From Candidatus Nitrosotenuis cloacae (lineage in GTDB: Archaea > Thermoproteota > Nitrososphaeria > Nitrososphaerales > Nitrosopumilaceae), in NCBI RefSeq assembly GCF_000955905.1, contig NZ_CP011097.1, forward strand, positions 507,957 to 571,956: DNA of 64,000 nucleotides, in the 5' to 3' direction. Within the stretch, counting starts at the first letter, position 1. Each line of letters starts with the position of its first letter. The notes below the pieces were generated by a model. That model was not told the DNA's origin and ran no database searches. It saw only the letters and a program-made list of their open reading frames with translations. The translations under genes were made by a program, and so were the position numbers. Positions 4,159 through 25,951 of this stretch are shown here, piece by piece.

Positions 4159-5172
4159 ATGAAAATTCTGCCTTTGGCTGGTGCAGCAGTTGCGGCAATA
4201 ATTGCAATTTCTGTTGTTTCTAGTATAGTTTCCTCTAATGATTCTGAGAAAAATCAGGTCAGGGTGGCATTTTTTGCAAATATCTCGCATGCCGTACCAA
4301 TAGTAGGAATAGAAAATGGTTATTTTGAGCAAAAACTAGGCGAGATGCAAATCAAGACCAAAATAGTCGACAGCGGGCCCGAGGCAGTAGAGGCGTTATT
4401 TGCAAATTCAGTTGACTTGGCGTATCTTGGACCTGCGCCGTTTGTGAATGGCTATGTCAAGTCTGGCGGCCAGGGAATAAAGATACTGACTGGGGCTGCC
4501 AATAATGGGGCAAGCTTTGTCATCCAAAAAGACTCGGGGATTCTGGCACCTTCTGATCTGGCAGGAAAAAAAATAGCAGCACCATTCATTGGAAACACAC
4601 AGGATGTTTCCTTACGTAACTATCTTGATGAGAATGGCCTCCAATCAGCTGAAAAAGGCGGCAATGTCGTAATATACAATATAGCAAATGCCGAAATCTA
4701 TACCATCTTTGCAAAAGGAGACATCGACGCTGCATGGGTTCCAGAACCGACTGCCACTATGCTAGTTGAGCAGCTGGGAGGAATAAGACTATTCCAAGAA
4801 GAAGATATTTGGCCGACAAAGAAATTTCCATCCGTTTTGCTTGTGGGGCGGGCTGATTACATTGAGAAACATCCTGATATAATAAAAAAATGGCTTGAAG
4901 CACACGACCAATCCATATCTTGGATAAATCAAAATCCAAACCAAACCGAATCAACATACATCAAATTTTACAAGGATCATACTGGCAAAGCCCTCAAAGA
5001 AAACATTGTTCACAATTCCTTTACCAAAATCATATACACATCAGAGATTGATTCTGATGCAATTCGCATATTTGCAGAGCGTGCTTATTCACTTGGATAT
5101 CTGGGACGCCATGGATACAATCTAGATGACATTTATGCAAAGACAATGGAGATCATACCATGGCAAAGCTAG
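4159..5172 (+). CDS. ABC transporter substrate-binding protein, nitrate/sulfonate/taurine (SsuA/NMT1) class
   Basis: A 337-residue extracytoplasmic binding protein. Residues 5-25 form an uncleaved-looking hydrophobic anchor with no lipobox cysteine. Two-lobed NMT1/SsuA-type features follow, including the ligand-loop DLAYLGPAPFVNGYV and DIDAAWVPEPTATML. Family members bind nitrate, sulfonates, taurine or thiamine precursors, and the ligand cannot be read from sequence. Its last 13 bp overlap the ATPase gene, and the permease follows, giving a complete importer. Confidence 0.88.
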   Translation: MKILPLAGAAVAAIIAISVVSSIVSSNDSEKNQVRVAFFANISHAVPIVGIENGYFEQKLGEMQIKTKIVDSGPEAVEALFANSVDLAYLGPAPFVNGYVKSGGQGIKILTGAANNGASFVIQKDSGILAPSDLAGKKIAAPFIGNTQDVSLRNYLDENGLQSAEKGGNVVIYNIANAEIYTIFAKGDIDAAWVPEPTATMLVEQLGGIRLFQEEDIWPTKKFPSVLLVGRADYIEKHPDIIKKWLEAHDQSISWINQNPNQTESTYIKFYKDHTGKALKENIVHNSFTKIIYTSEIDSDAIRIFAERAYSLGYLGRHGYNLDDIYAKTMEIIPWQS

Positions 5173-5930
5173 AGGCAAAAAATATTGTCAAGTATTTTGA
5201 GCATGACGGGCAGCCACTAAAGGCGCTTGGCGGAATCAACTTTACCGTAGAGGATGGCGACTTTGTGTGCTTGGTTGGACCATCCGGATGTGGCAAGTCT
5301 ACGTTTCTAAGAATTGCAGCTGGCCTGCAAAAGCCAGACGAGGGCCAAATCCTCCTTGATAATCGACCAATAACAAAGACCGGACCTGACAGAATAATGG
5401 TATTTCAGGAAGGTGCACTGTTCCCATGGCTAAAGGTGCGAGACAATGTTGAATTTGGATTAAAGATAGCTGGCATTCCAGAATCAGAGCGACACGAAAT
5501 CTCTGATAGATATCTGGACATGATGCAGCTCACAAAGTTTGCGAATTCGTATACGTACCAGCTCTCAACTGGGATGCGACAACGTGTTGCAATTGCCAGA
5601 GCACTAGTGATGGATCCTGAAATCTTACTGATGGATGAGCCATTTGCAGCACTTGATGCTCAGACTCGCGACTTGTTGCTAGTGGAAATGCAAATGATTT
5701 GGCAAAAGACAAAAAAGACCATCGTATTTGTGACACACAGCATTTCGGAATCTACTGTTCTGGGCAACAAGGTTGTAGTGTTTACACATCGTCCTTCTAC
5801 AATTAAGAAAATCATCCCAATAGATCACAAGAGGCCTCGACTTGTAGAAGATGAGGGATTGATTCCATACCAAAAAGAGATCTCTGCATTGCTAAGGCCT
5901 GAAGTAAAGGCAAAGGAGGACTCGTCTTGA
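5160..5930 (+). CDS. ABC transporter ATP-binding protein (SsuB/TauB class)
   Basis: Cytoplasmic ATPase of 256 residues that powers the importer. It shows Walker A GPSGCGKST, the Q-loop segment VFQEGALFPWLKV, the signature LSTGMRQRVAIARAL, Walker B ILLMDEPFAALD and the switch histidine in FVTHS. The signature carries Thr where LSGGQ has Gly, a tolerated variation in this subfamily. It overlaps the binding-protein gene by 13 bp and the permease gene by 4 bp, which suggests translational coupling. Confidence 0.95.
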   Translation: MAKLEAKNIVKYFEHDGQPLKALGGINFTVEDGDFVCLVGPSGCGKSTFLRIAAGLQKPDEGQILLDNRPITKTGPDRIMVFQEGALFPWLKVRDNVEFGLKIAGIPESERHEISDRYLDMMQLTKFANSYTYQLSTGMRQRVAIARALVMDPEILLMDEPFAALDAQTRDLLLVEMQMIWQKTKKTIVFVTHSISESTVLGNKVVVFTHRPSTIKKIIPIDHKRPRLVEDEGLIPYQKEISALLRPEVKAKEDSS

Positions 5931-6685
5931 AAATAAACTCACTTGCAAAAAAGATCATGTTCTATGTTGGTATTGTCTTGGTATGGCAGGCCTTTGATGC
6001 AGCAAATGTTTGGCCAGACAGCGTATTTCCATCACCATATGAGGTGGCAGAAGATCTTTGGTATGGTGCAGCAAATGGTACGTTGTGGATTGGAATAGGA
6101 ACCAGCCTTTGGAGATTGGTAGTGGGATTGTTGATTGCCATAGCCGGTGGCATGACACTTGGAATATTCATGGCGCGAGTCAAGACGGTAAATGAGACAA
6201 TTGGCTCTATTATTCTGGGATTGCAGTCGATTCCGTCTGTTGCTTGGGCACCACTTGCAATTGTGTGGTTTGGTCTGACTGATGCTGGAATTATTTTTGT
6301 CACAGTCGCTGGCGCACTATTTGCAGTTACCATCAATACGTATACTGGCGTGAAAAGCATCAATCCTGATTTCATCGCAGCCGCTCAGAATATGGGTGCA
6401 AAAGGCGAACAACTAATCACAAAGGTCTTGATTCCAGCTGCATTTCCATACTTGATAACTGGATTCAAGCAAGGTTGGGCGTTTGGCTGGCGTGGTGTGA
6501 TCGGCGCTGAGCTGTTGTTTTCTTTTTTGGGTCTTGGATTTTTGCTAAACGTTGGGCGTCAATTATCTGATGTCTCACAGGTGATTGCAATGATGTTGAT
6601 AATTATGATAATTGGAATTGTAATTGATGGATTGATCTTCAAGAAATTAGAAGACAAAGTCATGGCAAGATGGGGCTTGCGATGA
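5927..6685 (+). CDS. ABC transporter permease (SsuC/TauC class)
   Basis: Integral membrane protein of 252 residues with about six hydrophobic helices. The cytoplasmic coupling segment AAAQNMGAKGEQLITKVLIP matches the EAA loop of binding-protein-dependent permeases. The start overlaps the ATPase stop by 4 bp. The next gene, a pLGIC homologue, begins 19 bp after its stop, so it probably lies in the same transcript. Confidence 0.94.
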   Translation: MKINSLAKKIMFYVGIVLVWQAFDAANVWPDSVFPSPYEVAEDLWYGAANGTLWIGIGTSLWRLVVGLLIAIAGGMTLGIFMARVKTVNETIGSIILGLQSIPSVAWAPLAIVWFGLTDAGIIFVTVAGALFAVTINTYTGVKSINPDFIAAAQNMGAKGEQLITKVLIPAAFPYLITGFKQGWAFGWRGVIGAELLFSFLGLGFLLNVGRQLSDVSQVIAMMLIIMIIGIVIDGLIFKKLEDKVMARWGLR

Positions 6686-6704
6686 TCTTTATTTGTGAGT
6701 TATT

Positions 6705-7631
6705 ATGAATGCTCTAGTTTTTGCGCTGACATCTGTTTTTGTTCTAATCTTGATATCGAATACTGCATATGCTCAAACTAGTACGCCAATACAATATGAC
6801 GTGGACATAACACTGATTGACATTGGTGAAATCAATACCAAAGAGGGTTCATATGATTTGAAATTCTTACTGACATTGTCTTCTGATGATGTTGAGTTTA
6901 CAACAATGGAAAAGCTACCTGTAATTGATTTTGTAAACGGTGATCTTGATGAAGACATTGTGGTGGAATCCATAGAACCACACAGATATTCTTTTGAGGT
7001 TGATGGAAAATTCTTCAACGACATGTCTTTTCGCAACTATCCATTCTCACCAATTGATCTTTTGATCAAAATAGAGCCAGAATATCAGACAATTGATCAG
7101 GCAGAATTTACCTCTACACATTTGGATAAACTGTCCACAAAATATGGCGACCATATCCCTGGCTGGATTTTGATTGGAGTAAATGACTCTATAACGTCAG
7201 TCGTGGATGTAAATGGTAGAACTCACTCTCATTATGTTGCCGCCTTTCATTTAGAGAGGCCATTTCTATCTAATTTCTTTACAAAACTATTCCCGATATT
7301 TATTATGGTCTCAATTGTAATCTTTGCGTTCATACAAAATCCAAAACAGCATAAAATGGCTGAAATCGGAATCGGGATGTTTCTCTCACTAGTCTTTCTA
7401 CATGCTGCATTTCTGGGAGCAGACTTGCCACCACTTGACTATCTGACAATGCAGGACAAGATCCTAATTGTAAGCTATGTTACAATTCTATATGCATTAT
7501 CAGAAGAAATCATCCAGCAAAGATACAACAAGGAAAGCAATGCAGAGCGTGCACTAAAAATAAACCGAAAGATGCTAAAGTTTTTGCCAGTAATTATGAT
7601 AGTGTCTGCACTCGCACTCTTGTTCCTCTAG
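6705..7631 (+). CDS. pentameric ligand-gated ion channel (Cys-loop/GLIC-like) homologue 1
   Basis: A 308-residue protein with a signal peptide (residues 1-23), a beta-rich extracellular domain (about 25-190) and four membrane helices (M1 about 193-212, M2 220-238, M3 247-266, M4 290-307). Two pLGIC hallmarks are visible: SFRNYPFSPIDLLI near residue 108, the equivalent of the [D/F]xRxYPFDxQ segment at the Cys-loop position, and ADLPPLDYLTMQDK near 240, the M2-M3 linker motif. The disulfide cysteines of animal receptors are absent, as in other prokaryotic members. The gene follows the importer operon by 19 bp and ends sharing a CTAG with the next gene. Ligand and ion selectivity are unknown. 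Confidence 0.75.
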   Translation: MNALVFALTSVFVLILISNTAYAQTSTPIQYDVDITLIDIGEINTKEGSYDLKFLLTLSSDDVEFTTMEKLPVIDFVNGDLDEDIVVESIEPHRYSFEVDGKFFNDMSFRNYPFSPIDLLIKIEPEYQTIDQAEFTSTHLDKLSTKYGDHIPGWILIGVNDSITSVVDVNGRTHSHYVAAFHLERPFLSNFFTKLFPIFIMVSIVIFAFIQNPKQHKMAEIGIGMFLSLVFLHAAFLGADLPPLDYLTMQDKILIVSYVTILYALSEEIIQQRYNKESNAERALKINRKMLKFLPVIMIVSALALLFL

Positions 7632-10600
7632 TTACCCGTAGAGTTTGTTTGGGTAGGATTTGATTCTGTTTCTGGCTGAGTTTGCTCTTGAGGAACAGAT
7701 TCTATAGTGCTGTCTGGAATTGATTCTACTTGAGGTATATCAGTAGAATTTGATTGAATTGGGTCTGGAGCGGGCGTTTCTCTCGGTGTATCTAATACTG
7801 GTGCTTGTGTAGAGTTGGTGTTTTGTAATGTGGTTGACACATCATTGTTTTCACAGCCTTGTGTTGTAGCAGAGACGTCACTGCATACATCGTCGTGGAT
7901 TCCACCTTGTATGGTATCTTGACCTTCTCCACCCGTAATTACATCTTGACCACTGTTTCCAGAAATAGTATCATCTCCGTGACTGGCATCTATGGTGTCA
8001 TTTCCTGGACCACCAACTATTCTGTCATCTCCATGACCAGCGTCTACTACATCGTGGCCGTCTTGGCCGTAAATCCTGTCATCACCACTGTTACCCTGAA
8101 TGGTGTCATTTCCTGGACCACCAAAGACTCTATCATCGCCATCCCCACCAATAATGCAATCGTCTCCTCCATTTCCTTGGATGGTATCATGGCCACCATT
8201 GCCAAGTATGAGATCTGCCTGATCAGTACCGATCAGTGTATCGTTTCTGTCTGTTCCTTGTATAACTTTGGCAAAATAATCCTGCGTATGACCACAATAC
8301 AATTCTGATGTATTGTTGTTTTTTGCTGTGTCGACTAGGGGTTGTTTTACAGGTGATGGCGTATTTGTCAGGGTTGGCAATGTGACAGATTTCCCATCCA
8401 CATTTTCAATGGGGCAGCAACTCTCAATTGATCCATGATTGTTGTCTATTGTGCCGATATTGATTAGAGTGCCGTCATTTTTGATATCGCCGTTATTGTA
8501 AATTCCATTTGATACATGGTCTGTCTTTACACCAGAATTGTTGATTGTTCCAGAGTTTGTAATGCTTGCCATCCTACCAGCAGCGCCATTTTGTATTATT
8601 CCCGAATTTGTAATGATGTTGGTGTTTTGTAAAATGTTGTTATTGATAATAGAGCCCACATTTGTAATCGTACCGGAACTGGTAATCGTACCTGTGTTTT
8701 CAATTTGCCCTGATCTTTCTGTTATGGCATTTGTAATCACACCAGAACTATCTAGTGTACCGGAATTGGAAAACTCACCGGTATTTGTTATAGTACCAGA
8801 ATTAATCATTGCAGCAGAGTTTGTAAGTTTGCTACCATGGCCAGAATTGTTAATTGTCCCATAATTGGTTAGTGTTCCAGAATTACTCATTTTACCTAGT
8901 TGATTTGTAATCATGTCATAATTATTGAAAATATTGGTGTTTGTAAATTCCTGGCTATTGGTAATGGTTCCGTTATTTGCAAATACTCCATCATTTCTGA
9001 GAAATCTATAATTGGAGATTACTCCATCATTAATGATCATACCATGATCATTGTTTTGAATTGATGATTGGTCTCCAATTGTACCTGTGATTCCAACACG
9101 CATTATGCCAGAATTGATTATGGATGTTTTGTGATCAATTGTTCCTGAATTGTCAAGTGTGCCTGAAGTGTTGGCTATGCTACCCTCTATGGAGCCAGAG
9201 TTTTTGTTGTTTATAGTGCCGTCATTTTTGATATCGCCGTTGAGCAAGCCAGAGTTGTTTATGGTTCCGGAATTGTTATTGACAAAGTTGGTTCTACCAT
9301 ATTGAATAGTTCCTTGCCTGTTGTTGTTTATGATTCCAGAATTGGAAAATATTCCACGATCGTTGTTTAGTATGGTTCCTATGTCGTTTTGTATTACGCC
9401 TGATTCGGCATTTGAGAACGTTCCAAGATTGATTATTCCGGTATATCGTACACCGGAATTTTGAATTGTTATTGTTCCCGAATTGGTAAATGTTCCAGAG
9501 TTTGTAATACCTGCGCTATTTCCGTCAGGAATTAGAGCTATTATGGAGCCAGTATTTGTCATTATAGACTCGTTTGAAATATTGCTTGATGTGGTAATGG
9601 TGCCAGAGCTGCTGAATGTGCCCTGATTTCTGAATGAACCTTTTGTATTATTAACGGAGCCATTGCTTGTTATGGTTCCAGTATTTGTCAGACTATTCTG
9701 GTTTACAATAGCACCTGAGTTGATTATAAGATTTGAATTGGTAAATGATCTAGAGTTGAAATTAAGAGTACCTGCATTGTTGATTGTTCCAGAACTAGTA
9801 AATGTACCAATTACACTGATTGTACCGGAATCTACATTTGAAATCATGCCAGAGTTGTCTCCAGATCTGTTGTCTGTTACGGTAATTGTTCCTGCATTGT
9901 TGATTGTACCTTGATTAGTCGCAATGCCAACCATCACACCATTGTTTGCAATTGTGGCCTTGTTGACAAAACCACTACCGCCGTTTATTGTACCTGCATT
10001 GTTATTGGTAATGTTTGCAAAATTAGTCAAAGCAAATGCATTCATTGTTCCGAAATTTGTTATCTTGTTATAGTTGGACACTGTACCTTGGATGATATCC
10101 AACGTGCCGTAATTTTTGATGGTACCAGTTCCATCATTTTCAAATGTCCCCCCAATACCGAAACTTCCACGATTTTCAATGGTGCCGGAATTTGTCATGA
10201 TGCTTTTTTGTCCGCCATGTATTGTTCCAATATTTTTAATGTATCCTAGATTTGTCATGGTGCTATCGGCCACATCCATCTGTCCGGAATTGGTAATGTT
10301 GCCTTTGTTGTTGATCGTCATATCTTTACCAATGTCGAGTTGAGCCTTGTCGTTTATGATTAGCGTTCCAGAATTTTGTATGCCAAATCCCCTCATTGAT
10401 GATTTGACAGTTACAGTAATGCCAATAGGTATTGTGACATCTGCCTGATCAAGATGGTCTGTGCTTAAACCCCACGTAGCTGGATCATCAAAATAACCAG
10501 ATTTTACTGCAGTGTATGATGTGATGGCGTTAGCATCATGAATTGAAAACCCAACAAGAATTGTTGTTATAATAATTGAAAATAAAACCGCTCTACTCAA
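7628..10600 (-). CDS. giant secreted beta-helix protein with RTX-type calcium repeats
   Basis: About 990 residues from a TTG at 10600, chosen because it opens a clean signal peptide (MSRAVLFSIIITTILVGFSI, cut near DANA) and has a TATA-like TTTATTTC about 30 bp upstream. A longer reading to 10735 would run into the MFS gene. After a GYFDDPATWG opening come roughly 700 residues of short NSGTI/NNGTI-type repeats predicted to coil as a parallel beta-helix. About twelve nonapeptide repeats of GGxGxDxx type (for example GNDTIQGNSGDDRIYG) follow, which in RTX proteins bind calcium. The last 90 residues are Pro/Thr/Gln-rich. Probably a cell-surface or adhesion protein. Confidence 0.85.
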   Translation of the reverse strand: MSRAVLFSIIITTILVGFSIHDANAITSYTAVKSGYFDDPATWGLSTDHLDQADVTIPIGITVTVKSSMRGFGIQNSGTLIINDKAQLDIGKDMTINNKGNITNSGQMDVADSTMTNLGYIKNIGTIHGGQKSIMTNSGTIENRGSFGIGGTFENDGTGTIKNYGTLDIIQGTVSNYNKITNFGTMNAFALTNFANITNNNAGTINGGSGFVNKATIANNGVMVGIATNQGTINNAGTITVTDNRSGDNSGMISNVDSGTISVIGTFTSSGTINNAGTLNFNSRSFTNSNLIINSGAIVNQNSLTNTGTITSNGSVNNTKGSFRNQGTFSSSGTITTSSNISNESIMTNTGSIIALIPDGNSAGITNSGTFTNSGTITIQNSGVRYTGIINLGTFSNAESGVIQNDIGTILNNDRGIFSNSGIINNNRQGTIQYGRTNFVNNNSGTINNSGLLNGDIKNDGTINNKNSGSIEGSIANTSGTLDNSGTIDHKTSIINSGIMRVGITGTIGDQSSIQNNDHGMIINDGVISNYRFLRNDGVFANNGTITNSQEFTNTNIFNNYDMITNQLGKMSNSGTLTNYGTINNSGHGSKLTNSAAMINSGTITNTGEFSNSGTLDSSGVITNAITERSGQIENTGTITSSGTITNVGSIINNNILQNTNIITNSGIIQNGAAGRMASITNSGTINNSGVKTDHVSNGIYNNGDIKNDGTLINIGTIDNNHGSIESCCPIENVDGKSVTLPTLTNTPSPVKQPLVDTAKNNNTSELYCGHTQDYFAKVIQGTDRNDTLIGTDQADLILGNGGHDTIQGNGGDDCIIGGDGDDRVFGGPGNDTIQGNSGDDRIYGQDGHDVVDAGHGDDRIVGGPGNDTIDASHGDDTISGNSGQDVITGGEGQDTIQGGIHDDVCSDVSATTQGCENNDVSTTLQNTNSTQAPVLDTPRETPAPDPIQSNSTDIPQVESIPDSTIESVPQEQTQPETESNPTQTNSTGN

Positions 10601-10650
10601 TACGTACGTGTGATAATGATGTTGAAATAAACCTGATCTTGCTATGGTTA

Positions 10651-11745
10651 TTACTTTTTGATCTTTAATGAAACCAAAAATGCTACACTGCAAACCACAA
10701 CTGCAAAATACATCACCATTACATGCCCGTACCAAAATGCTATGCTACCAGCAACTACAGGACCTATCACATTTGCAATCGATATTGTGGAATTAAAAAC
10801 ACCAGTAGATGTTGACTTTGGATTATTTTCCATTAGGTGAATGCTTCCACCAATATACAAAAACGCCCAAGTGACACCAACTAGCGCCATACAGGGAATT
10901 GCCATCCACCAATCACTCATCACCGCCATTCCGGCAAACACCAAAACAGTTAACCCAATTCCGATTTTGAACTTGGTAATGTTGTGTGTGGTAATTTTAC
11001 CACCCATCAGATTCATCAGAACAAACGCAGAAGCCGTATTGGCAACATATACGATAGACACCTCATACAGCTTGGCGCCAAATGCCTGAGTCAGCACCAA
11101 AGGAAGTATAGTCCAAACAGACGTTGCGCCAATATGCCTAAGCAAGAGCGATAAAAACAAGTACTTGTTTTTTGCAATCACCTTTTTTGTAGTGCCTGAC
11201 TCTACCTCCTTTGCCATGGTGTAGTTTGGCATTCTTGCAGAAAACACAAGGCCTGCCAAAAACAAAGAGGCACTAATCAGAAATATCGTCTTTTCATTGT
11301 TTGCAACACCAGCTGCCACAATTCCTGCCAGCCATCCCAAAGCATGAAATGAAATCACAGATGCGACCTTGGATTTGTCCTTGCCTGATTCATACGTATA
11401 TGCGAGCATTGCAGGCACCATCATACCACTGGTAACCCCAGCACCCAGTCGAACCAAAAGCAGGTAAAACGAGTTATCCGCAATATAGTGCAGGCCAAAC
11501 ATTGCAGCGCATCCAATGAACCCAATTCGAATAAACGTCAGCCTGACTCCACGAGCATCCGAGATTCTGCCAAAGTACAGACCGGACAGAATCTGCGCCA
11601 AAAAGAACGATGCTATGGTTAGTCCGACTTCGAAAATATTGCTAGTCAGTGATTGCGCCAAAATTGGCATGAACACATATACGATTGAGACGCCTGCGTG
11701 CTGAAAGAATGTTGCACCTCTAAGTAAATTATTTAGTTGCTGCAT
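10651..11745 (-). CDS. MFS transporter
   Basis: A 364-residue membrane protein with about 11-12 hydrophobic helices. The segment GLYFGRISDARGVRLTFIRIG matches the conserved G-x-x-x-D-R/K loop between helices 2 and 3 of the major facilitator superfamily. The substrate cannot be inferred. A TATA-like AATTAAATTAAT lies about 30 bp before the ATG. It has its own promoter, and the beta-helix gene downstream begins 51 bp after its stop. Confidence 0.88.
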   Translation of the reverse strand: MQQLNNLLRGATFFQHAGVSIVYVFMPILAQSLTSNIFEVGLTIASFFLAQILSGLYFGRISDARGVRLTFIRIGFIGCAAMFGLHYIADNSFYLLLVRLGAGVTSGMMVPAMLAYTYESGKDKSKVASVISFHALGWLAGIVAAGVANNEKTIFLISASLFLAGLVFSARMPNYTMAKEVESGTTKKVIAKNKYLFLSLLLRHIGATSVWTILPLVLTQAFGAKLYEVSIVYVANTASAFVLMNLMGGKITTHNITKFKIGIGLTVLVFAGMAVMSDWWMAIPCMALVGVTWAFLYIGGSIHLMENNPKSTSTGVFNSTISIANVIGPVVAGSIAFWYGHVMVMYFAVVVCSVAFLVSLKIKK

Positions 11746-24860: not shown

Positions 24861-24884
24861 TATTTTCTTATTTTTGTATTTTTG
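24861..24884 (+). terminator. T-rich terminator after nirK
   Basis: Three successive T runs (TATTTTC, ATTTTTG, ATTTTTG) begin about 7 bp after the nirK stop, without a strong hairpin. This is the usual form of archaeal intrinsic termination. Confidence 0.5.
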
Positions 24885-24897
24885 ACTTGAACAATAT

Positions 24898-24909
24898 TGT
24901 TATAATATA
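24898..24909 (+). promoter_or_regulatory. TATA-box candidate of pLGIC homologue 2
   Basis: TGTTATAATATA is centred about 24 bp before the ATG at 24927. It gives this gene its own leaderless promoter, separate from nirK. Confidence 0.5.
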
Positions 24910-24926
24910 ATTGCCCAAAACAAACC

Positions 24927-25889
24927 ATGATGCAGCGACATTTCTTGCTAATTCCTGCAATTATGATGGTCTTACTCGTTCCAAATTTTGCACAAGGCCA
25001 AGAAATCCCAGAGCAAATATCTACACCCGTAACGTATGATGTTGGAATACAGCTAGAAAACATTGGATTCATAGATAGGCAAGGGGGATCATATGAGCTG
25101 ATTTTTTGGGTAACTATATCATCTGATGAAATTGATTTTACAAAAAACCCTCCGCCACAAACATTTGATTTCACTAATGGACATGTAGAGGAGATAACTG
25201 GGATGCATACAGAGCAACACTTTCACAAATTCAAGGTAAGGGGCGTTTTCTACAATTCAATGGATTTTCGGGACTATCCATTTGAGAGCATTGATCTGGC
25301 AATCCATATGGAGCCATACTACCCAAACACCAGCGACAAGCTTGTATTTACTGTCAATCAAGAATACAGTGGAATAAGCAAGTCCGATACAACCAGCGTA
25401 CCGGGATGGTCAATAGGTGATCCAAGCTTTACTTCGAGCACCCAAAGTTATCCGTGGGGCGATTTTACTCACTTTGAAGCTCATTATCTAGTTGGTACAG
25501 CAGATCTTTTGGCCTTTATGAAAAAATTATTCCCAATCGGAGTGCTAATGGCATTTTCATTTGCATCATTTTTGCTCTCACCTAAAAGCCAGGGTGAACG
25601 ACTGGGGATGATCTCTGCTTCACTTTTGTCCGCCACCTTTTTCCATTCTGGATACCTCAATGCTGAGCTACCTCCAATAGGATATCTGACTTTGGCAGAC
25701 AAGATAATGATCACAGCTTATACTTTCTTTATCATATGTCTGACACCGATGGTGCTAACAAGATATTACACAGAGGTCAAAAAGCGAGAATTCACACTAG
25801 ATCAGCAAATGCGGCTGGACAAAAAAATAATTTTCATAGCGCCATTGACCTCGCTTGTCATATTCACTGTTGTTTACTTTACATTATAG
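24927..25889 (+). CDS. pentameric ligand-gated ion channel (Cys-loop/GLIC-like) homologue 2
   Basis: A 320-residue paralogue of the protein at 6705-7631. It has a signal peptide (about 1-24), a beta-rich domain (25-195), and four membrane helices (M1 about 197-216, M2 225-243, M3 252-272, M4 298-318). The hallmarks recur: DFRDYPFESIDLAIHMEP near residue 113 and AELPPIGYLTLADK near 246. M2 begins GERLGMISASLLSATFF, with a charged ring followed by small hydroxyl residues, as expected for a pore helix. No Cys-loop disulfide is present. It lies 72 bp after nirK with its own TATA box. Ligand and ion are unknown. Confidence 0.75.
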   Translation: MMQRHFLLIPAIMMVLLVPNFAQGQEIPEQISTPVTYDVGIQLENIGFIDRQGGSYELIFWVTISSDEIDFTKNPPPQTFDFTNGHVEEITGMHTEQHFHKFKVRGVFYNSMDFRDYPFESIDLAIHMEPYYPNTSDKLVFTVNQEYSGISKSDTTSVPGWSIGDPSFTSSTQSYPWGDFTHFEAHYLVGTADLLAFMKKLFPIGVLMAFSFASFLLSPKSQGERLGMISASLLSATFFHSGYLNAELPPIGYLTLADKIMITAYTFFIICLTPMVLTRYYTEVKKREFTLDQQMRLDKKIIFIAPLTSLVIFTVVYFTL

Positions 25890-25951
25890 TAGCAAGGATC
25901 ACCAAAGTTCAGATAATAGATTATATTTCGTGCATCTAGAGGCAACACTAC

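Follow-up and report, generated by a model that had tools for sequence, protein, structure and literature searches.

Ligand-to-pore coupling is the central question for the acetylcholine, GABA, glycine and serotonin receptors, and the pair formed by the pre-M1 arginine and the Pro-loop aspartate is a keystone of current coupling models. Table 1 of Jaiteh, Taly and Henin (2016), in the part of the paper available, gives the pre-M1 Arg at 94% with no alternative listed and the Pro-loop Asp at 93% (PMC4795631). Exchange of this Arg for Ala left ELIC without activation, the equivalent GLIC mutant was not expressed, and mutants of the partner Asp were non-activating (PMC4778918). For the muscle-type (Torpedo) nAChR, alpha Arg209 mutants were not expressed, whereas beta, gamma and delta tolerated neutralisation; loss of the arginine has strong effects on homomeric receptors (PMC10899235). 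A homomeric subunit without this arginine (R-less) might therefore fail to gate as a classical channel. The different tolerance of alpha and of beta, gamma and delta suggests that an R-less subunit may be read in two ways: it either accompanies other subunits in a heteromer or forms homomers with rewired coupling.

pLGICs have been described in archaea. The available text of Jaiteh et al. reports a supported Thaumarchaeota clade (ten sequences, six thaumarchaeal species) together with gene loss and sparse distribution, and states that no biological role of the superfamily is known in any unicellular organism (PMC4795631). An archaeal pLGIC of this kind is known biology, and the family is not new.

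Gene layout and membership in the superfamily

The window is the whole stretch of 64,000 nucleotides that was analysed. The gene under study has the following features.

24927..25889, + strand: pLGIC (Pro-loop receptor) gene, class II (pre-M1 Arg-less), 320 aa
24927..24998, + strand: putative signal peptide, residues 1-24, judged from the hydrophobic N-terminus ending ...FAQG/QE
24999..25499, + strand: extracellular ligand-binding-like beta-sandwich domain, predicted strands 35-191
25266..25286, + strand: Pro-loop F114-R-D-Y-P118-F-E120, with Glu in place of Asp and no Cys on either side
25497..25499, + strand: Thr191 at the pre-M1 arginine site (GLIC R192), Arg absent
25503..25577, + strand: M1 helix with the conserved kink proline P203, predicted helix 193-217
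25590..25655, + strand: M2 pore helix with G-2' E-1' R0', L9' and F13' F14', predicted helix 222-243
25668..25691, + strand: M2-M3 loop LPPIGYLT, residues 248-255, with the conserved P249; E247 immediately N-terminal
25692..25778, + strand: M3 helix, predicted helix 256-284
25797..25883, + strand: M4 helix, predicted helix 291-319

The N-terminus (MMQRHFLLIPAIMMVLLVPNFAQGQ) is signal-peptide-like. The second ATG, at 24930, is aligned with the start of an ortholog and may be the true start. The earlier note had described a complete channel plan with a signal-like N-terminus, a beta-rich domain and four helices. All these parts are present in the translation and in the predicted structure, but the word complete has to be qualified, as the pre-M1 Arg/Pro-loop Asp pair is absent. 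The motifs FRDYPF (114-119) and LPPIGYLT named in the earlier note are present, and the charged M2 entrance followed by Ser/Ala is the GER entrance seen here; FRDYPF does not precede the Cys-loop position, since FRDYPFE is the Pro-(Cys-)loop itself. P118 is preceded by Y117, and the beta9-core aromatic, the M1 proline and the M2-M3 proline are all present (W161, P203, P249). The Cys pair that flanks the Pro-loop in Cys-loop receptors of the metazoan type is missing, as expected for prokaryotic members; the sole Cys is C271 in M3, and the ECD is cysteine-free. The beta2-beta3 segment is short relative to GLIC in the alignment.

The resemblance to pLGICs greatly exceeds what chance would give. 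In a phmmer search of PDB chains, GLIC chimeras scored E=7e-8 and ELIC 2e-7, and the NCBIfam LIC model matched with E=1.1e-9, under the model's own curated cut-off. A profile of the 13-member class II clade reached E=6.5e-16 against GLIC and 8e-16 against sTeLIC. The Pfam transmembrane profile PF02932 gave E=0.94 (10.1 bits vs a gathering cut-off of 28.1), and the Pfam ligand-binding profile PF02931 had no match to the window pLGIC in a search that matched none of its controls either. The Pfam pLGIC models are too narrow for this protein. An AlphaFold (AF2) model built on two sequences only was of low confidence (mean pLDDT 53.6, pTM 0.44), and its predicted order is a beta-sandwich ECD followed by four TM helices. 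When this low-confidence model was compared with the PDB by Foldseek, the top matches listed were all pLGICs over the full length, with E about 1e-12 to DeCLIC, ELIC, GLIC and GlyR, a probability of 1.00 and TM about 0.4.

The earlier note had proposed the pLGIC identity, to be abandoned if the topology differed or no profile matched significantly. Neither occurred, with the quality of the model as a caveat. The predicted fold agrees with GLIC/ELIC-type pLGICs, and the profile comparison was divided: the NCBIfam and clade profiles matched and the Pfam profiles did not. At the Pro-loop the protein has Glu120, a residue listed at 3%; Asp there is a common, non-universal trait and is not decisive for membership. 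Its Thr191 replaces an Arg that is near-universal, not absolute. Judged from sequence and the predicted fold, the window protein is a genuine pLGIC, placed in the superfamily by its homology and its Pro-loop, and its clade is taken as a coupling variant.

A clade without the pre-M1 arginine

Our alignment covered 45 thaumarchaeal sequences, some of them fragments, together with GLIC and ELIC (letters identical to 2XQ3 and 2VL0). The pre-M1 Arg (GLIC R192, ELIC R199) is missing from the query and 12 others, and neither the MAFFT alignment nor an independent HMMER alignment has a gap from site 191 to the M1 proline. These 13 sequences, here class II, form one clade within one family, with bootstrap/SH-aLRT of 99/98, and of 99/95 in a 62-row tree. 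Arg was found at the site in 0/13 class II sequences vs 18/18 of class I, and every full-length sequence sampled outside this family retains it; class II has Thr, Ser, Asn, Met or Ile instead. Extra isolated losses in the 62-row tree belong to G106 and G418, fast-evolving relatives of the same family. A frame-broken copy without Arg from G423, also a fast-evolving relative in that family, was omitted from this tree.

Several other positions separate the two classes. The Pro-loop Asp is replaced by Glu, His or Asn across class II. Position 101 is Lys or Arg in all 13 class II sequences vs Glu in all 18 of class I, and position 59 is hydrophobic or Thr (13/13) vs Asp (18/18). The loop-B-like Asp151 and the loop-C-like His173 of class I are gone in nearly all class II proteins. 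When aligned to GLIC, positions 59, 101, 151 and 173 fall within or close to the classical ligand-site loops D, E, B and C, respectively, a tentative mapping at about 15% identity. The Asp-Glu-Asp-His set at these ligand-site positions is near-invariant in class I and suggests, from sequence, one common ligand or metal across families. M2 -1' is acidic in 12/13 class II vs 1/18 class I sequences, and residue 247 is acidic in most of class II vs 0/18. The 13'-14' pair is aromatic in class II, nearly always Phe-Phe, and class I has Ala at 13' in 17 of the 18. Within class II, M2 and the M2-M3 loop are strongly conserved.

No convincing substitute for the arginine at site 191 was found among the basic residues of class II. 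Lys101 was considered as a compensating base; the position is basic in all class II, but it aligns to loop E (GLIC L103), off the domain interface. Basic residues 115 and 199 were set aside as replacements, being found in class I as well.

The dN/dS of the G377 pair was 0.076/0.418, that of G377b-G014 0.17/1.40 and that of query-G013 0.207/1.807, the last with dS near saturation. The least-saturated pairs gave ratios of about 0.11-0.18, most pairs being saturated in YN00. As dN/dS is well below 1, the class II genes are maintained by purifying selection. A clade that lacks the Arg/Asp pair and is yet under selection is a natural test of coupling requirements.

The nirK-serA locus and the other archaeal copies

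The gene lies 72 bp downstream of nirK on the same strand, and the earlier note took this neighbourhood as a functional hint. Among the genomes compared, the adjacency is found in this one only. In 11 related genomes a lyase/fumarase-like gene is followed by nirK and then by serA, without an intervening pLGIC, and the conserved adjacency of a nirK-associated module is not seen. The segment concerned and its upstream block are as follows.

24884..25919, + strand: inserted segment of about 1.04 kb, missing from the nirK-serA spacer of relatives
24890..24928, + strand: upstream block of about 40 nt with the TATA-like TATAATATAA (24901-24910)

The pLGIC gene and the upstream region that belongs to it make up the whole insert. 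At the left edge, 55 nt are identical to G013 up to 24883 (the nirK of G013 is about 92% identical), and at the right edge the shared sequence restarts at 25920 (ATTATATTTCGT...), with 1036 bp here vs 8 bp in G013 (AGTAAATG). The T-rich tail of nirK (terminator region) is intact upstream of the insert, and the serA ATTATATTT region (promoter) is intact downstream. The upstream block has a counterpart 5' of the G016 ortholog, which occupies a different locus; the two align with a score of 40 vs a maximum of 25 in 1000 shuffles; the G013 ortholog has only a 9-nt piece of it in common. This block is likely the gene's own archaeal promoter, with a short leader or none.

The closest orthologs (G013 and G016, sister species) are located near EF-2, and the one in G013 has no obvious ATG start. 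Besides EF-2 at these two and one small ORF at both G377 copies, class II has no recurrent gene neighbours. Mobile-element, plasmid, phage or viral relatives of the window pLGIC were searched for and none was found. The most fitting view of the gene is that of a relocating single-gene unit, independent of its neighbours. Given the insertion, the promoter block brought with it and the orthologs near EF-2, the adjacency to nirK is no reliable clue to the ligand. The idea of a nirK-linked function was dropped and the neighbourhood regarded as a positional accident.

At least one pLGIC was found in 26/220 good-quality genomes of an even sample of the class, in 15/131 genomes of the family and in 32/316 genomes of the phylum sample. 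Scanning contigs with one protein or with alignment A1 gave no matches and was uninformative, since the separate genome search found many. The claim that such channels are rare in archaea is roughly right on the class and phylum counts, but thaumarchaeal pLGICs were already published (PMC4795631). The window's genome (G000) has three pLGIC genes, 24927-25889, 6705-7631 and G000:C1:260531-261418. The second lies in the window itself and, like the missing pre-M1 Arg, was absent from the earlier note.

6705..7631, + strand: second pLGIC gene, 308 aa, with the pre-M1 Arg; placed as the sister of class II by the extended tree

The second protein has YPFS in the Pro-loop, and the 0' Arg is missing from its M2. 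Its gene begins 20 nt downstream of three genes for an ABC importer of the SsuA/TauA type (binding protein, TIGR01728, 4e-54; ATPase; permease), and the four genes occupy one strand of the window at 4159-7631, an operon-like arrangement that joins a pLGIC to an importer of the sulfonate/nitrate family. Convergent to this pLGIC gene, at 7628-10735 on the minus strand, a long repeat-rich protein is encoded; the calcium-binding repeats close to its C-terminus are RTX-like (GGxGxD). In the third paralog (L002:1432-2328), M2 has Asp as residue 2' and Val as residue 0'. Its gene stands directly 3' of a repeat-protein ORF, the two together spanning L002 294-2328 (G000:C1 about 259400-261430); the repeats of this ORF look like Calx-beta repeats. 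The pLGIC gene of G146 (L074 7025-9408) is apparently split into an N-terminal half at 8689-9408 and a C-terminal half at 7025-7399, with a 421-aa ORF between them, as if an insertion element had interrupted the gene. Genome G231 (L069, L080, L081) has four pLGIC genes, two of them neighbours on contig C31.

Possible function and comparison with described channels

The pore entrance of the query, G-2' E-1' R0', is nAChR-like (GE[K/R]), and that of class I, A/P-R or Q-R, is near the anion-receptor motif A[R/K]. The ARIGLGAST stretch of class I presumably resembles the glycine-receptor M2. GE[K/R] goes with cation selectivity and A[R/K] with anion selectivity in metazoan receptors; outside the Cys-loop receptors, according to the available text of Jaiteh et al., the pore motif alone is no general predictor of selectivity in prokaryotes (PMC4795631). 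Because of this limit, we go no further than to infer that the class II pore is likely cation-selective.

On balance, we lean towards class II being a cation-selective homopentameric channel with rewired coupling, independent of nirK. The subunit would face the cell surface, with the N-terminus secreted outside, a beta-sandwich sensor and a four-helix pore domain, and the subunits would most likely join as a homopentamer. A small ligand or an ion condition outside the cell would open a cation-permeable pore. Class II would have given up the salt bridge between the Pro-loop Asp and the pre-M1 Arg that couples sensor to pore in nearly all pLGICs, and coupling would then have to use either the conserved contacts that remain (Pro118/Phe119, Pro249, Tyr253, Asp50 turn) or residues specific to the class. 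The gene is a single-gene unit inserted between nirK and serA, and its position gives no support to a tie with denitrification.

Class II proteins might also keep the fold and bind a ligand, and then signal or act as a buffer with no pore opening, as non-conducting or metabotropic-like sensors or as degenerate receptors. They have lost the arginine, without which ELIC and GLIC mutants are silent (PMC4778918), and the Pro-loop Asp (Glu, Asn or His instead), the polar set D59/E101/D151/H173 of class I is largely gone, and the bulky F13'F14' stands in the pore. We consider this rather unlikely, as the high conservation of M2 and the M2-M3 loop, the newly fixed acidic -1' ring and the mostly acidic residue 247 are simplest if ions pass; purifying selection and the lack of a cytoplasmic signalling domain in class II proteins speak against it as well. 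A sensor of nitrogen compounds or pH functionally tied to nirK seems highly improbable. GLIC is proton-gated and pH gating is conceivable, and the strand and the 72-bp distance would suit such a tie, but against it stand the pLGIC-free nirK-serA of 11 relatives, the terminator region kept between the genes, the promoter block brought along and the sister-species orthologs beside EF-2.

The R-less protein might instead serve as an accessory subunit of a heteropentamer with Arg-bearing paralogs, comparable to the non-alpha subunits of the nAChR; the Torpedo receptor tolerates neutralisation in beta, gamma and delta, not in alpha (PMC10899235). Both types do occur together in G000 (two Arg-bearing paralogs), in G013 (one) and in G016 (class II and class I in tandem), and heteromers are possible in these three. 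However, no Arg-bearing gene was detected in 8 of the 11 class II genomes, and among these the complete single-contig genomes G110 and G125 have one pLGIC each, of class II. An Arg-bearing partner is therefore not generally required, an obligate heteromer was rejected as a general rule, and we regard the accessory-subunit reading as quite improbable. The G016 tandem (L043, class II at 6785-7720 and class I at 7766-8707, one strand, tens of nt apart) offers a natural candidate case of a heteromeric pLGIC in a prokaryote, or else of paired cation-type and anion-type channels.

We put forward tentatively a wider proposal: a natural pLGIC clade may gate as homopentamers without the pre-M1 Arg bridge deemed essential in tested homomers, its coupling hub having been rewired as the pore changed from the anion type to the cation type, with ammonia-oxidizing archaea carrying both lineages in parallel. 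These archaea, to which the host probably belongs, judging by nirK and its family, have both anion-type and cation-type candidate channels.

The Thaumarchaeota clade of Jaiteh et al. shares with the window pLGIC the superfamily, the archaeal group and the Cys-less Pro-loop; unlike here, the available text of that paper does not single out an R-less subclade (PMC4795631). Class I thaumarchaeal pLGICs (for example G013 L045, G016 L043:7766-8707, G165, G169) have about 30-35% identity and the same architecture, but they carry the pre-M1 Arg, an Asp/Glu Pro-loop, an A/P-R or Q-R entrance and the conserved D59/E101/D151/H173. GLIC (Gloeobacter, proton-gated) is alike in topology, Pro-loop YPF, M1 Pro, M2-M3 Pro and single-domain architecture; it has D122, R192 and a longer beta2-beta3, where class II has Glu/Asn/His and Thr/Ser/Asn/Met/Ile at the two residues. 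DeCLIC, the best Foldseek neighbour among solved bacterial pLGICs, carries an extra N-terminal domain that the window protein is without, and sTeLIC is a close profile neighbour. ELIC (Erwinia/Dickeya), an amine-gated cation channel, likewise has an acidic -1' and Arg 0' at the pore entrance (SER vs GER in the window pLGIC), but it keeps D122 and R199, and the window pLGIC has neither.
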